Shown piece by piece: positions 17,497-22,202 of a stretch of 64,000 nt of DNA. The translations under genes were made by a program, and so were the position numbers. Every line of letters begins with the position of its first letter. Positions within the stretch are counted from its first letter, which is position 1. The DNA is from Selenomonas sp. TAMA-11512 (GTDB lineage: Bacteria > Bacillota > Negativicutes > Selenomonadales > Selenomonadaceae), in contig NZ_AP029018.1 of NCBI RefSeq assembly GCF_037076525.1, positions 744,001-808,000 of the forward strand, given 5' to 3'. The notes under the pieces were generated by a model. That model searched no databases and was not told where the DNA came from. It saw nothing but the letters and a program-made list of their open reading frames with translations.

Positions 17497-17561
17497 GAAA
17501 TAAGCCCCTTTGCATACCTCATCCAAATCGGAGGACGAGGCAAATGATATCTATGTCCTCC

Positions 17562-17590
17562 ATCATAACACATCCCCCCCCCCCCACAAG
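17562..17590 (-). promoter_or_regulatory. putative promoter with a G12 homopolymer in the -35/-10 spacer
   Basis: Read on the minus strand: TTGTGG (-35, plus-strand 17584-17589), a 16-bp spacer made of ten G and ATGTGT, and TATGAT (-10, plus-strand 17562-17567). The full C/G run is 12 bases (17574-17585). It lies about 65 bases upstream of the ribbon-helix-helix start codon. Confidence 0.55.
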
Positions 17591-17636
17591 ACATGTCAGA
17601 AGATTTTTATAAAACACATACATAGTATAAACATGA

Positions 17637-17665
17637 TTGTTTTATGTTATAAAATATGTTATAGT
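17637..17665 (+). promoter_or_regulatory. promoter of the first flgE gene
   Basis: TTGTTT at 17637-17642, 17-bp spacer, TATAGT at 17660-17665. A start near 17671 would place the 5' end exactly at the first leader hairpin. The same TATAGTA-x-CT-x-GAGGGAAG arrangement recurs before the second flgE (TATAGT 20039-20044). It does not look like a sigma-28 flagellar promoter. Confidence 0.65.
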
Positions 17666-17670
17666 ATCTT

Positions 17671-17797
17671 GAGGGAAGCGTCTCGTTTTGCGAGACCTTC
17701 GGACTATAGCGTATGGAGGCGTCAGCATCGGACCTTCGGGAGATGTGTGCTGACAGACTGACTGACGTCAGCCGCGACCGCCTCCCAAAGAAAGGAA
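17671..17797 (+). ncRNA. structured 5' leader of flgE (copy 1)
   Basis: The predicted fold has four helices. A 5' hairpin pairs GAAG-x-GTCTCG (17675-17685) with CGAGAC-CTTC (17691-17700). Then a three-way junction is closed by GGAGGC/GCCTCC (17715-17720 with 17780-17785). Arm 2 pairs GCATC/GATGT around a 12-nt loop GGACCTTCGGGA (17730-17741). Arm 3 pairs GCTGAC/GTCAGC around the loop AGACTGACTGAC (17755-17766). The flgE Shine-Dalgarno AAAGGAAG (17790-17797) follows the junction directly. The second flgE has the same layout with changed stems and conserved loops. No known riboswitch class is recognised. Confidence 0.72.
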
Positions 17798-17809
17798 GCA
17801 TGATAACCT

Positions 17810-19873
17810 ATGATGCGTTCACTTTTCTCCGGGGTATCCGGACTGAAGAGCCATCAGACTCGTATGGACTCCATTGGCAACAACATTGCCAACGTCAATA
17901 CGACGGGCTACAAGTCAACTCGTGTCACATTCGCCGATACGCTCTATCAGACAAGCGCCGGAGCCTCCGCGCCAAAAGATAGAATTGGCGGCACGAATCC
18001 GAAGCAGATCGGTCTCGGTGTAGGCGTATCAGCAATCGATACGATCTTCACGGACTCTTCCGCACAGTCGACAGGCAAGAATACGGATCTTGCATTAAAC
18101 GGCAACGGTCTGTTCGTCGTAAAACGCGGTGACGAAACGTACTATACGCGCGACGGTAATTTCTCCTTTGATGCGGAGGGCAATTATGTCCTCTCCGGCT
18201 CCGGTCTTTATGTTCAGGGATGGATGGCGGATGCAGCCGGAAAGATAGCGCCAAGTCCAAGTACGGAGAAGATTACCATTAAGGCAGGAAAAGGCATGGA
18301 TGCCGATCCCACGAAGATGGTAAACTATACGAATAATTTACGCGGAGATTCGCCCATCTATAAAGTTTTGAACATGGCGGTCAAATACGTAGACGGAACT
18401 TCGGAAACAACGACAAATTACGCTCCGACGGAAAAGGGAACGATTTCCTTGACGACGAACAAGAACTTTTATGTCACATTAGATGATACGGCCACCTACA
18501 ACTTCCAGACAGGTCAGCCGATCACGGGCAAGACGCTTTGGACATCAAAAGTCGATACCGTAACGGCGACGGGGCCGGCAGCAAATGATGGAAGTGTTGA
18601 TCTGACTCTTGCGGTTGATCCTACTGACCCGACAGGACCGCGTACGGTTACGGGTCTTCATGTCCCATTAACGGTAGAAAGCGGAACGTATCGCTATGGG
18701 GACAAGTTCTCGTTCTCCCAAACGATTGAAGACGTAGATGCTACAGGTGCCGGCCCCGGGATGGTCAAATTGAAGCTTACGGATAATAATAAGCCGACAA
18801 AGACAGGCATTACACAGGTCACTGTACCAATGCCGACAACGTTTTCCTATAAGGTCGGCGATACATTCACCGGGCATCTGAAGATCAACAAGATCGATAA
18901 TATTAAAGACAAGGCTGTCGTCAAAGCGAAGAACGGGCAGTCTGCTACAGGAGAACACTTCCCGGGACTGTCAGTAGCCAGTGCCACGACAGCGGCCGTA
19001 TGCGAAGGTGTTGTATCGGATGGAAACGTAGAGGTTGTCCATCGAAAGAGCGGTTACGCCTTTAACGGGAAAGAGGTTGAATCGGTTAATCTTCAGACGG
19101 AGGATGGACAATCCTTGACAGGTATGGTCGGTAAATCATATCTGCAAAATGATCTCTTCTCTCCCCCGATTGCAACGGTCTTTACCGTATATGATACACA
19201 AGGGCGTCCACATAAGGTTACGGTAAACTTCACAAGAGTTCCCGCAAAGGATAATACATGGGAGCTTTCTATCGGCAGAGGCGCAGCTTCTGACACGATG
19301 ACGGGAGAGGACTTCTCCGAGACAAACGTAGCCCTTTCATCGACAGAACTGGTCTTTGATGAAAACGGCCGTTACAAGAGCGGTGAAGGCTCGCTTACGA
19401 TGACCTTCACCAGTCCGAACGGTGCACAGGACTCGCGTGTAATCTCCTTAAATCTCGCCGCGCTTACCCAATATGCGGGGGGTACAACCATAAAAGGTGA
19501 TGCGGACGGCTATGCGGCAGGCTCCCTTGCATCCGTACAGATCGACTCTTCCGGTGTTATCACAGGTGTGTATACCAATAGCGTTATGCGCACGGAAGCA
19601 CAGGTCGCTGTTGCGCAATTCAATAATGCGGCAGGTCTGCAAAGGTCGGGCAACAACCTCTATCAGATTTCAAACAACTCCGGTTCAGCCGCAATCGGGA
19701 CATCTACCGATTTGGGATGCAAAATCACACCGGGTGCGCTCGAAATGTCGAATGTCGATATCGCTAATGAGTTCTCGGATATGATTATCACCCAGCGCGG
19801 ATTCCAGTCGAATTCGAAGATCATCACCGTCGGCGATGAGATGCTCGAGACCGTCATCAACATGAAGAGATAA
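17810..19873 (+). CDS. flgE: flagellar hook protein FlgE (paralogue 1)
   Basis: A 687-aa secreted hook subunit; polymers of FlgE form the universal joint between basal body and filament. The N-terminal signature M-R-S-L-F-S-G-V-S-G-L-K-S-H-Q and N-N-I-A-N-V-N-T-T-G-Y-K (flagellar rod/hook N-domain, residues 1-40) and the C-terminal F-Q-S-N-S-K-I-I-T-V-G-D-E-M-L-E-T-V form the D0 coiled coil. The middle (about 150-560) is the exposed, variable D1-D3 region and is longer than in enteric FlgE (about 400 aa). There is no cleavable signal; export is by the flagellar type III system. It is preceded by a structured leader and followed by a terminator, so it is monocistronic. A second flgE follows. 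Confidence 0.93.
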   Translation: MMRSLFSGVSGLKSHQTRMDSIGNNIANVNTTGYKSTRVTFADTLYQTSAGASAPKDRIGGTNPKQIGLGVGVSAIDTIFTDSSAQSTGKNTDLALNGNGLFVVKRGDETYYTRDGNFSFDAEGNYVLSGSGLYVQGWMADAAGKIAPSPSTEKITIKAGKGMDADPTKMVNYTNNLRGDSPIYKVLNMAVKYVDGTSETTTNYAPTEKGTISLTTNKNFYVTLDDTATYNFQTGQPITGKTLWTSKVDTVTATGPAANDGSVDLTLAVDPTDPTGPRTVTGLHVPLTVESGTYRYGDKFSFSQTIEDVDATGAGPGMVKLKLTDNNKPTKTGITQVTVPMPTTFSYKVGDTFTGHLKINKIDNIKDKAVVKAKNGQSATGEHFPGLSVASATTAAVCEGVVSDGNVEVVHRKSGYAFNGKEVESVNLQTEDGQSLTGMVGKSYLQNDLFSPPIATVFTVYDTQGRPHKVTVNFTRVPAKDNTWELSIGRGAASDTMTGEDFSETNVALSSTELVFDENGRYKSGEGSLTMTFTSPNGAQDSRVISLNLAALTQYAGGTTIKGDADGYAAGSLASVQIDSSGVITGVYTNSVMRTEAQVAVAQFNNAAGLQRSGNNLYQISNNSGSAAIGTSTDLGCKITPGALEMSNVDIANEFSDMIITQRGFQSNSKIITVGDEMLETVINMKR

Positions 19874-19892
19874 TTTCACAGTACGATTTCTT

Positions 19893-19924
19893 AACTCCCT
19901 TACCTCGCGGCAGGGGAGTTTTGC
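19893..19924 (+). terminator. terminator after flgE paralogue 1
   Basis: AACTCCC-TTACC / GGCAG-GGGAGTT stem around TCGC (19893-19920) plus T residues. The sequence from the flgE stop through this hairpin is nearly identical to that after the second flgE. Confidence 0.85.
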
Positions 19925-20049
19925 TTTGCATTTTTACAACAGGGAATCACGTTCTATATAGTGCACACATAGATATAATGAATTATTGTTCTGTAAAATA
20001 ACATATTTTCTAACATATCAATCTCCATTTCTTCGCTGTATAGTAACTG

Positions 20050-20172
20050 GAGGGAAGTCTTTTCTTTTTTGAGACTTCGGTTCTATACGAGTTTGGGCAG
20101 TATGCGTCGGACCCTTGGGAGACGCGGGAGAGCAGACTGACAGACGCTCTCCGGCCCGGAAAGAAAAGGAGA
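20050..20172 (+). ncRNA. structured 5' leader of flgE (copy 2)
   Basis: Same architecture as 17671-17797. The 5' hairpin is GAAGTCT/AGACTTC (20054-20060 with 20072-20078). The junction is closed by GGGC/GCCC (20095-20098 with 20154-20157). Arm 2 is GCGTC/GACGC around GGACCCTTGGGA (20109-20120). Arm 3 is GGAGAGC/GCTCTCC around AGACTGACAGAC (20134-20145). Compared with copy 1 the stems differ in sequence but keep pairing, while the two 12-nt loops differ at only a few positions. The AAAAGGAG Shine-Dalgarno follows at 20165-20172. Confidence 0.72.
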
Positions 20173-20183
20173 TTGATTTTACT

Positions 20184-22202
20184 ATGATGCGTTCACTCTA
20201 TTCCGCTGTCTCGGGGCTTAAGTCGCACCAGACGAAGATGGATGCCGTCGGACACAACATCGCCAACGTCAACACCTACGGCTACAAGACGCAGCGCGTG
20301 ACGTTCGCCGATACGCTCTATCAGACGAGCTCGGGAGCCGCCGCGCCGAGGGACAATCGAGGCGGCGTCAACGCCAAGCAGATCGGTCTGGGCGTCGGCG
20401 TGTCGGCGGTCGACACGATCTTCACGGACTCCTCGAAGCAGGCGACGGGCAAGAACACGGACGTCGCGCTTTCGGGCAACGGACTTTTCGTCGTGAAGGA
20501 CAATTCGGGCACGTACTACACGCGTGACGGCTCGTTCGCCTTTGACGCGGACGGCAACTACGTCACGAGCGGGGGGCAGTTTGTCCAGGGCTGGATGGCG
20601 GATGACAAAGGAAAGCTGTCGACGACGGGGACGGCGGGGAAAATCACCGTGCAGTCGGGCAAATCCATGGAGCCGACGGCAACCTCGACGGGGACGTATA
20701 CGAATAATGTCAACTCCAACCCGCAGGGCGGACCGGTCAGTTCTATTATGGTTTCATACACGGACGGCACGTCGGAGAGCGTGACGAATTATGCACCGGT
20801 AAAGGAGGAGATCGTTCTTCACACAGCAGGGGGGGTCAGTGTTCCTGTTACAACCGGTACGCATACGGTAGGTAGCCCTGTTGGTACTGTTTCGGTTGGA
20901 ACGATTCAATCCGTAACCGCCGCAAATGCCGGAGAAGTAGAGCTTAAAGTATCAAAGGCAACATCTGGCTATATCGATATGGTTCCGCCATCATTAACTA
21001 TGGCCAATGAAACGGGTACTTTCACCTATCCGGGAAATTTTGAAGTTACAAAGCAAATTGTAACTGTCACGACTGATGCTGTAGCGAAAACGGTAACACT
21101 GACATTTGCTGCCGGTACCGACGGCATAACGAGTGTGACGATACCGAAACCGCCTTCCGGAACGTATGCGGCAGGTGATGACTTTAAGATCAGTGTGCCG
21201 CTTGATTCTGTCAAGGCGAAGACAGGTGCTAAGGTCTCGGTTCGGAATGGAACAGATGCACCTGTGGAATACACGGTAGGAACTACACCAGGAACAGTCG
21301 CAGAAGCGGAAGTAGGAAAGCCGGCGATGTATGATGGATCCAGTGACAACATCACATCGATCGAGCGTCGGCCTGCGCGTACACCCATGTTTAACGGCAA
21401 GGTGCCGTCGACGGTCACGGTCTCGCTGACGGACGGCACCACCTATTCGGCAAATATCAACCAGTCCTATAAGACAGGAACCAACTACTATCCGCCGATA
21501 TCGACGACCATCACCGTCTATGACACTCTTGGGAATGCGCATTCCGTGCCGATTCTCGTCGGCATGAAGGAGAAGGATTCCACGAACGGCAACAAGTGGG
21601 TGGCGTCGCTTGCGACGAATGTCCTTGATAACGGCGACACGACGCTTGCCATGCAAGATGTGGAGATTCAATTCGACTTGTTCGGTAAGGTGAATGCGGC
21701 GAAAACACAGCCGGGACAGCTTACGCTGACCTACAAGAACGGCGCGGATTCGAGTAAGGGTACGCAGATCGTCAGCGTCGACTTCTCATCTCTGACCCAG
21801 TATGCCGGCGGCAATACGATCAAGAGCGACACAAACGGCAATGCGGCCGGAACGCTGCAGTCCCTGTCGATCGACTCCGCGGGTGTCATCAGCGGTACGT
21901 ATTCGAACGGCATTATCAAGAACGAAGCGCAGATCGCCGTCGCGCAGTTCAACAACGCGGCCGGTTTGACGCGCGTGGGCGGCAATTACTATCAGGTGTC
22001 AAACAACTCCGGCGAGGCGAATGTCCGCTCGGCGACAGACCTCGGCGTTACGTTCAGCCCGGGACAGCTTGAGATGTCGGGCACCGATATCGCCAATGAG
22101 TTTACGGAGATGATCACAACGCAGCGTGGATTCCAGTCGAACTCGAAGATCATCACCGTCGACGATGAGATGCTCGAGACCGTCATCAACATGAAGAGAT
22201 AA
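20184..22202 (+). CDS. flgE: flagellar hook protein FlgE (paralogue 2)
   Basis: A 672-aa second hook protein. Its N-terminal 130 residues and the last 60 are close to paralogue 1 (same N-I-A-N-V-N and S-K-I-I-T-V-D-D-E-M-L-E motifs), while the centre is different. Bases about 20820-21350 are more A/T-rich and use other codons than the flanks, as if a surface-domain segment had been exchanged. ATG 20184 is chosen because AAAAGGAG precedes it and the protein then starts M-M-R-S-L-Y-S-A-V-S-G like its paralogue. It has its own leader and terminator. Whether both hooks are made at once, or alternatively, is not visible from sequence. Confidence 0.93.
   Translation: MMRSLYSAVSGLKSHQTKMDAVGHNIANVNTYGYKTQRVTFADTLYQTSSGAAAPRDNRGGVNAKQIGLGVGVSAVDTIFTDSSKQATGKNTDVALSGNGLFVVKDNSGTYYTRDGSFAFDADGNYVTSGGQFVQGWMADDKGKLSTTGTAGKITVQSGKSMEPTATSTGTYTNNVNSNPQGGPVSSIMVSYTDGTSESVTNYAPVKEEIVLHTAGGVSVPVTTGTHTVGSPVGTVSVGTIQSVTAANAGEVELKVSKATSGYIDMVPPSLTMANETGTFTYPGNFEVTKQIVTVTTDAVAKTVTLTFAAGTDGITSVTIPKPPSGTYAAGDDFKISVPLDSVKAKTGAKVSVRNGTDAPVEYTVGTTPGTVAEAEVGKPAMYDGSSDNITSIERRPARTPMFNGKVPSTVTVSLTDGTTYSANINQSYKTGTNYYPPISTTITVYDTLGNAHSVPILVGMKEKDSTNGNKWVASLATNVLDNGDTTLAMQDVEIQFDLFGKVNAAKTQPGQLTLTYKNGADSSKGTQIVSVDFSSLTQYAGGNTIKSDTNGNAAGTLQSLSIDSAGVISGTYSNGIIKNEAQIAVAQFNNAAGLTRVGGNYYQVSNNSGEANVRSATDLGVTFSPGQLEMSGTDIANEFTEMITTQRGFQSNSKIITVDDEMLETVINMKR

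Follow-up and report, generated by a model that had tools for sequence, protein, structure and literature searches.

The flg-Rhizobiales (RF01736) and Termite-flg (RF01729) RNA motifs are named for flagellar genes and lie in leaders. Both are listed, for Rhizobiales and the termite hind gut only, in PMC2864571. In Bacillus subtilis, the hag leader acts with CsrA and FliW in the post-transcriptional control of a flagellar axial protein (PMC6529632). Here we describe an RNA element in the leaders of the hook gene flgE and the rod gene flgG. The window, the 64,000-nucleotide stretch of Selenomonas sp. TAMA-11512 DNA that was analysed (contig NZ_AP029018.1, positions 744,001 to 808,000), carries two flgE genes arranged in tandem, each preceded by such a leader. 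These leaders are a selected RNA structure tied to rod and hook genes, a point that we regard as beyond doubt. With confidence evenly divided, we propose that the element is a translational control leader for hook and rod genes and that it is most likely read by the TIGR02530 protein, for which binding and direction of control are inferred.

The leader element and its fold

A covariance model of the element, R1, was built from 39 sequences and comprises 51 positions and 14 base pairs. The element is a three-way junction formed by an outer stem (P1) and two arms (P2 and P3), and it adjoins the Shine-Dalgarno sequence, where the leader had been predicted to end. The R1 score is 45.1 bits for leader 1 (17725-17772) and 50.4 bits for leader 2 (20104-20151). 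The features of the two leaders and their genes, by window position, are as follows.

17660..17665, + strand: TATAGT, putative -10-like box of flgE copy 1, by consensus only
17674..17701 (ends approximate), + strand: 5' GAAG hairpin of leader 1, seemingly restricted to the window copies
17715..17721, + strand: 5' strand of P1 in leader 1, GGAGGCG, from a helix search with positions verified
17725..17746, + strand: P2 of leader 1, GCATC - GGA - CC - TTCG - GG - A - GATGT, an R1 match with covariation
17749..17772, + strand: P3 of leader 1, GCTGAC - A - GACTGACTGA - C - GTCAGC, an R1 match with covariation
17779..17785, + strand: 3' strand of P1 in leader 1, CGCCTCC, from a helix search with positions verified
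17792..17798, + strand: Shine-Dalgarno-like AAGGAAG of flgE copy 1, by sequence
17810..19873, + strand: flgE copy 1 (687 amino acids), an open reading frame (ORF) whose N-terminal 104 residues match the NCBIfam FlgE model at 162 bits
20039..20044, + strand: TATAGT, putative -10-like box of flgE copy 2, by sequence
20053..20079 (ends approximate), + strand: 5' GAAG hairpin of leader 2, by sequence pairing
20095..20098, + strand: 5' strand of P1 in leader 2, GGGC, 4 base pairs only, the helix search having favoured a different helix in this leader
20104..20125, + strand: P2 of leader 2, GCGTC - GGA - CC - CTTG - GG - A - GACGC, an R1 match
20128..20151, + strand: P3 of leader 2, GAGAGC - A - GACTGACAGA - C - GCTCTC, an R1 match
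20154..20157, + strand: 3' strand of P1 in leader 2, GCCC, by sequence pairing
20166..20171, + strand: Shine-Dalgarno-like AAGGAG of flgE copy 2, by sequence
20184..22202, + strand: flgE copy 2, with its ATG at 20184 (the listed ORF opens upstream at 20115) and an N-terminus that matches the NCBIfam FlgE model at 155 bits

The gap between TATAGT and GAGGGAAG is 5 nucleotides (nt) in both leaders, which bears out the equal spacing noted in the original prediction, and the stems named there pair as listed above. The case for a selected structure was made by comparison. Among R1 matches at 49 places (48 distinct), 90.6% of cells paired, compared with 70.2% after shuffling and at most 50.9% after sliding, and 12 of the 14 R1 pairs were changed on both sides; this alignment leans towards R1 because it was made with R1. 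When no structure was supplied, RNAalifold on a MAFFT alignment of the 39 sequences recovered P2 and P3, with double changes in 11 of 11 pairs. A set of 77 further matches, of which 3 are identical to training rows and which leans towards R1 through its alignment to the model, gave 92.5% of cells paired versus 75.4% shuffled and at most 61.1% slid, again with 12 of 14 pairs changed on both sides. Covariation across the 39, 49 and 77 sequences rules out chance and, as had been argued from the two window copies, simple duplication as the origin of the likeness.

P2 consists of a stem of about 5 base pairs (bp), an internal loop of GGA against R, and a short P2b stem with its tip. UUCG, CUUG and UACG, which we take to be tetraloops, are the tips seen in both window copies and in loci L003 and L004. 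The stretch originally described as a conserved GGACC..GGGA loop resolves more plausibly into three parts: an internal loop of GGA against A, a CC-GG pair, and a tetraloop, UUCG or CUUG. P2b was paired in 94.8% and 98.6% of cells in two hit sets; its second pair was C-G in 56 of 72 cells and U-A in 16 of 72 in the 77-hit set, the U-A form occurring in flgG leaders. P3 is a stem of 6-7 bp capped by a loop of the GAMUGACNGA type, for which the most plausible reading is that tandem G.A pairs close an NYGAYN hexaloop. The P2 internal loop and the P3 loop are conserved while the stem sequences vary.

CsrA sites carry GGA in a hairpin loop. The element has GGA motifs, and Selenomonadaceae flgE copies that lack the element carry a hairpin resembling such a site; both features would suit CsrA, the regulator named among the original suggestions. 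In the element, however, the conserved GGA separates P2a from P2b as one strand of an internal loop and is followed by CC, with P2b staying paired. Furthermore, two genomes (G124 and G125; loci L133 and L135) were seen by eye to have a CsrA-like hairpin as a separate upstream hairpin beside the element. We therefore consider it highly improbable that the element is itself a CsrA target. The hairpin of the element-free flgE leaders has the form GAC-ANGGA-GUC (such as GACAGGGAACGTC) and was observed in L007, L011, L013, L019, L024, L042, L271 and L278.

Single-sequence folding of the window leaders was unremarkable (z -1.36 for leader 1 and -0.84 for leader 2), and the structure case therefore rests on comparison. 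The predicted 5' GAAG hairpin pairs in the window leaders but was absent from the minimum-energy fold of leader 2 and was not seen, by eye, in eight relatives; it thus looks local to the window copies. For P1, real partners scored above swapped partners for flgE leaders both in Selenomonadaceae (19.1 versus 15.5, standard deviation (sd) 0.36, n=66) and outside the family (14.2 versus 12.4, sd 0.24, n=81), and no better than swapped partners for flgG (n=20). In certain stand-alone copies, such as L137 with AUGCAGGU/ACCUGCAU (by eye), P1 has a sequence peculiar to that copy.

A search of the whole window with Rfam 15 at gathering cut-offs returned only transfer-messenger RNA and transfer RNA. 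In E-value scans of window 17550-20250 and of 11 and a further 20 other loci, nothing at the element reached a gathering score; a sub-threshold small nucleolar RNA row over the L021 element scored 22.5 bits against the 75 needed. In window 17550-20250, models of the cyclic di-GMP (c-di-GMP)-I and c-di-GMP-II riboswitches did not appear among matches with E up to 10, and cmscan gave no match of flg-Rhizobiales or Termite-flg to the leaders. As far as Rfam goes, a described RNA class is thereby ruled out, in agreement with the original expectation. The literature searched, which included passages of PMC8632094, PMC8040213, PMC11109978 and PMC2864571 and did not extend to supplements, preprints or most subscription papers, yielded no comparable leader RNA of flgE or flgG.

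Distribution and the genes that follow

A loose pattern located the motif in two more genomes of the family, both times before flgE, and FlgE loci from named genomes carried it before flgE in Negativicutes, Clostridia, Bacilli and Aquicultor. R1 was then run over 83 sources (535 kb) and matched at 49 places, every one upstream of flgE; most of these sources had been fetched by FlgE, so that the flgE neighbour is given by construction, while the absence of other matches is not. In genome searches with R1, the element was present in 79 of 189 Selenomonadaceae genomes, which confirms the expected homologues before flagellar genes in related genomes, and in 200 of 299 sampled Bacillota genomes. 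The original prediction held for the two window leaders but missed this breadth, the flgG leaders and the co-occurrence with TIGR02530. An R1 match at E<=1 was found in 17 of the 18 genomes behind the named loci, several of which had a second match before flgG or a second flgE. In a sample of Actinomycetota, the phylum of the Aquicultor genome, 14 of 149 genomes had a match, 11 of them at E<=1e-4. The opened actinomycete matches precede flgE and flgG, and one further place, ahead of flgB, falls within a small ORF; three weak ones (G525, G528 and G546, E 0.002-0.009) were left unopened.

Relatives of Aquicultor (L183, L292, L294, L295, L299, L301 and L302) had R1 matches about 0.5-0.6 kb before flgB, several of which fall inside a conserved small ORF (AGLETEAKE..PTEVFRSN type) and may be coding matches. 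Weak matches without flagellar genes in L132 (26.9 bits), L189 (26.3) and L184 (20.8) were taken as chance. Further weak matches, of 15-18 bits, came from L090, L091 and L185, of which only L090 was opened.

Among 72 loci opened in Selenomonadaceae, a number that includes the window's own copies and repeats of one place, flgE was the next gene in 67 (flgE follows the element in L092, L097 and L113), four elements lay between TIGR02530 and flbD, and one had no flagellar gene. A second set of 77 opened genome-search matches, drawn from the genomes behind the named loci and from the Bacillota sample and made up of the best-scoring loci and chosen lower-ranking ones rather than a random draw, placed the element before flgE in 45 cases and before flgG in 29; two ran off the contig, and one lay 562 nt before a rod-type match (flgB). 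No opened match lay directly before a rod gene other than flgG. This last result bears on the idea that the element serves type III export or mRNA localisation by directing the flgE and flgG transcripts to the export gate. The products of both genes are rod/hook-class export substrates, as such a signal would have it, but other rod genes are not directly preceded by the element and the Shine-Dalgarno link described below points to translation, which makes an export signal very unlikely.

In the usual operon the element stands between TIGR02530 and flgE. It is also found in the operon where flgE is gone, in L089, L115 (G124), L122 (G015) and L134 (G125). L089 (C1:668937-671986, outside the window) is the main flagellar operon of the window's own genome; it lacks flgE, and the element-bearing flgE copies of this genome are located in the window, apart from that operon. 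The element left in L089 is the third R1 match in the genome (G000:C1:670437-670486, 34.7 bits) and has TIGR02530 upstream and flbD-fliL downstream. The four stranded operon copies are either recent relics, as their stems still pair by eye, or evidence of a second role on flbD or TIGR02530 itself.

The operon position and the persistence without flgE would both suit a processing or stability element, a cleavage mark or 5'-end protection through which the hook cistron yields more product than its operon neighbours. Against this, the element is kept where flgE and flgG stand elsewhere, including in the window leaders at their promoter-like box, and the GGAGGUC form of the Shine-Dalgarno sequence is specific to flgE. 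A role in processing or stability is, in our estimate, quite unlikely.

Three features near stand-alone or individual copies were observed in passing. A palindrome-like stretch (CATGTTATAAAACATG or similar) lies beside the TATA box at window 17643-17665 and upstream of the element in L136, L137 and L138; it is common to stand-alone flgE copies and could be a shared operator. Upstream of flgE copy 1, 12 consecutive C residues (window 17574-17585) form a possible slippage site. Short hairpin-like repeats (GAAGAACCTGCGGTTCTTC type) occur between the element and the Shine-Dalgarno sequence in L058 and L066 (Lachnospiraceae).

Complementarity to the Shine-Dalgarno sequence

The Shine-Dalgarno form GGAGGUC is the complement of GACCUC in P2 and was present in 44 of 85 flgE rows outside Selenomonadaceae. 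The base after GGAGGT was C in 48 of 61 flgE starts versus 6 of 96 other genes in the same loci, where it was usually G (74 of 96). An exact 6-nt complement of GACCNN preceded the start in 39 of 150 flgE rows, compared with 15.6 after partner swapping (maximum 25 in 500), and in 0 of 26 flgG rows; the flgE and flgG labels in these counts come from rough patterns, label some flgE genes as flgG, and differ from the reference-based labels. Mean duplex energy outside Selenomonadaceae was -9.26 versus -8.85 with swapped partners (sd 0.09, 0/300), and the corresponding signal for flgG was weak (-4.07 versus -3.75, 15/300). Partners were swapped among species, and these statistics ignore ancestry. 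In five leaders with GGACCUUUCC, GGAAAG-Y-GUC before the start was seen by eye to be the complement with one bulge.

A mutually exclusive anti-Shine-Dalgarno pairing is possible in 45 of the 85 flgE rows outside Selenomonadaceae and in none of the 70 Selenomonadaceae rows. In the 45 leaders with a complement of 5-6 nt, the fold with the Shine-Dalgarno sequence paired is less stable than the best fold by a median of 1.7 kcal/mol (0-9.7); the best fold contains P2 in 32 of them. Anti-Shine-Dalgarno pairing as a universal rule was rejected, being missing in Selenomonadaceae and nearly so in flgG. Given the Shine-Dalgarno link and the position of the element, it is likely that the element controls translation and hence the amount of hook and rod protein. 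For leaders with an anti-Shine-Dalgarno arm we lean towards activation, since the Shine-Dalgarno sequence would be released once a factor held P2 and P3 in place.

Such a switch could also respond to a small molecule. In a riboswitch for c-di-GMP or another motility signal, the ligand-bound junction would free or hide the Shine-Dalgarno sequence, and the three-way junction, the two conserved loop regions in variable surroundings and the anti-Shine-Dalgarno pairing of nearly equal energy are all riboswitch-like. HD-GYP and GGDEF-like genes near the window copies, as the ORFs were read in the original prediction, favour this possibility, but beyond these nearby genes no result links the element to c-di-GMP. 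One would expect a switch for a second messenger to precede other kinds of gene as well, whereas the opened matches are nearly confined to rod and hook genes; moreover, the element goes with one protein gene, and no Rfam riboswitch family was matched. A small-molecule riboswitch is thus an unlikely reading.

TIGR02530 as the candidate reader

The gene directly upstream of flgE in the usual operon encodes TIGR02530 (107.7 bits, cut-off 83.2). Among the 299 Bacillota genomes, 253 had FlgE-type proteins, defined as NF004241 at E<=1e-20 (the curated cut-off was passed by 2 only, and FlgG may count), 211 had TIGR02530 and 200 had the element. The element was present in 199 of the 211 genomes with TIGR02530 versus 1 of 42 with FlgE-type proteins but no TIGR02530 (Fisher p 3e-35, uncorrected for ancestry). 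Of the 12 genomes with TIGR02530 but no R1 match, nine were fetched; with filters off, all nine matched R1 at 17.7-26.5 bits, at the right place and on the flgE strand. In contrast to these nine, ten fetched leaders without TIGR02530 gave no R1 match on the flgE strand and two on the opposite strand (8.8 and 10.9 bits). In Selenomonadaceae, TIGR02530 was present in 82 of 189 genomes, including all 79 that bear the element, and in actinomycetes it was present in 10 of 11 genomes with a strong element. Copies on the flgG side were unlinked to TIGR02530 in the stretches read, and their genomes nearly all have TIGR02530. A control panel of 14 genomes that included Bacillus subtilis yielded no TIGR02530, and no paper naming it was found in the literature searched.

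FlbD, whose gene lies in the same neighbourhood, was considered as a partner and rejected. In 80 named FlgE loci, some cut by contig ends, FlbD was present at 34 of 45 element-bearing loci versus 43 of 45 for TIGR02530, and at 15 of 35 element-free loci versus 4 of 35. Second TIGR02530 genes were observed in genera g6 and g22; in L014-L016 they stand before flgE copies without the element.

An AlphaFold2 model based on 31 TIGR02530 sequences had a predicted local distance difference test score of 81, with block means of 94-96 over residues 51-110. The predicted order is helix-helix-strand-strand-strand-helix, preceded by a low-confidence N-terminal tail; the C-terminus contains a nearly invariant TNIDSA stretch, and the invariant residues include H53, R57, R61 and K83. 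With VIA-align, 16 of the 19 best rows were toxins or toxin-antitoxin proteins by title, mostly RelE, ParE, HigB and YafQ; the best row (Z 6.0, root-mean-square deviation 2.9, 67 aligned) is under the trust level advised for the tool. DUF4258 matched 3 of the 31 members at E<=0.01. These results tentatively suggest that TIGR02530 resembles RelE/ParE proteins.

TIGR02530 is our best single guess for the reader of the element. In the mechanism that we propose, the three-way junction of P1, P2 and P3 lies directly before the Shine-Dalgarno sequence of flgE or flgG, and a trans-acting factor would read the conserved GGA/R internal loop of P2 together with the P3 hairpin loop, its binding deciding ribosome access to the Shine-Dalgarno sequence. 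For flgE outside Selenomonadaceae, roughly every second copy would work by an exchange of pairing, with GACCUC in P2 engaged either in closing P2 or with GGAGGUC. The window copies and almost all flgG copies show no such complement, and there the factor-bound junction would act through its position beside the Shine-Dalgarno sequence. The factor would most likely be the TIGR02530 protein, so that one small protein would set both hook and rod synthesis, perhaps coupling them to the stage of assembly, which was among the original suggestions. A more specific version, which we find doubtful, is that TIGR02530 is a RelE-fold, toxin-like RNA binder turned flagellar regulator that matches axial-protein synthesis to the state of the export apparatus through the junction.

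Several observations weigh against translational control by TIGR02530. On the FlgE tree, co-occurrence was unsupported, with 4 independent pairs on supported branches and a median p of 0.5, and because the tree gives so few independent pairs, shared ancestry could still be the cause of the co-occurrence. TIGR02530 and the element are also physically linked at flgE. G506, an actinomycete with a strong match in a flgG leader, and G495 in the Bacillota sample have the element without TIGR02530, and 4 of 14 actinomycete genomes with TIGR02530 had no R1 match. None of the 70 Selenomonadaceae flgE rows has GGAGGUC, which occurred in 1 of the 26 flgG rows, and the window copies themselves have no anti-Shine-Dalgarno complement. 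The operon copies without flgE are unexplained by a purely flgE-directed role. At the level of the protein, Foldseek returned no fold match for the TIGR02530 model at E<=0.001, and the VIA-align list includes kinases at Z 5.5 and below, in a range (under 8) where Z can reflect a common arrangement.

Hook and rod proteins have to be made in suitable quantity and at the proper moment. On the way in which many Firmicutes achieve this after transcription, an RNA class that occurs in two-thirds of sampled Bacillota genomes, before flgE and often before flgG, gives a direct handle. Through its pairing with the element, TIGR02530 gains a testable function. If the RelE-fold version of the proposal is true, much of Bacillota would have a system parallel to CsrA/FliW for flagellin, and in Selenomonadaceae that lost the TIGR02530 system, CsrA-like hairpins would replace it.

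The TIGR02530 model appears to share with RelE/ParE-superfamily toxins the helix-helix-three-strand arrangement at the best Z of 6.0; it differs in having no sequence match to solved structures, in its place in a flagellar operon, and in its low-confidence N-terminal tail and C-terminal TNIDSA. Leader RNAs as such are known already, and flg-Rhizobiales and Termite-flg are likewise named for flagellar genes; new here, as far as was searched, are the element class, the gene set and the likely reader. The hag leader offers the same control logic for a flagellar axial protein, but with another RNA, another protein, and flagellin instead of hook. As in leaders of the ribosomal-protein type and anti-Shine-Dalgarno riboswitches, a refolding leader would hide or free the Shine-Dalgarno sequence and, as in the former, the reader may be encoded in the same operon; the sequence, the fold, the genes and the candidate reader set the present element apart from both.

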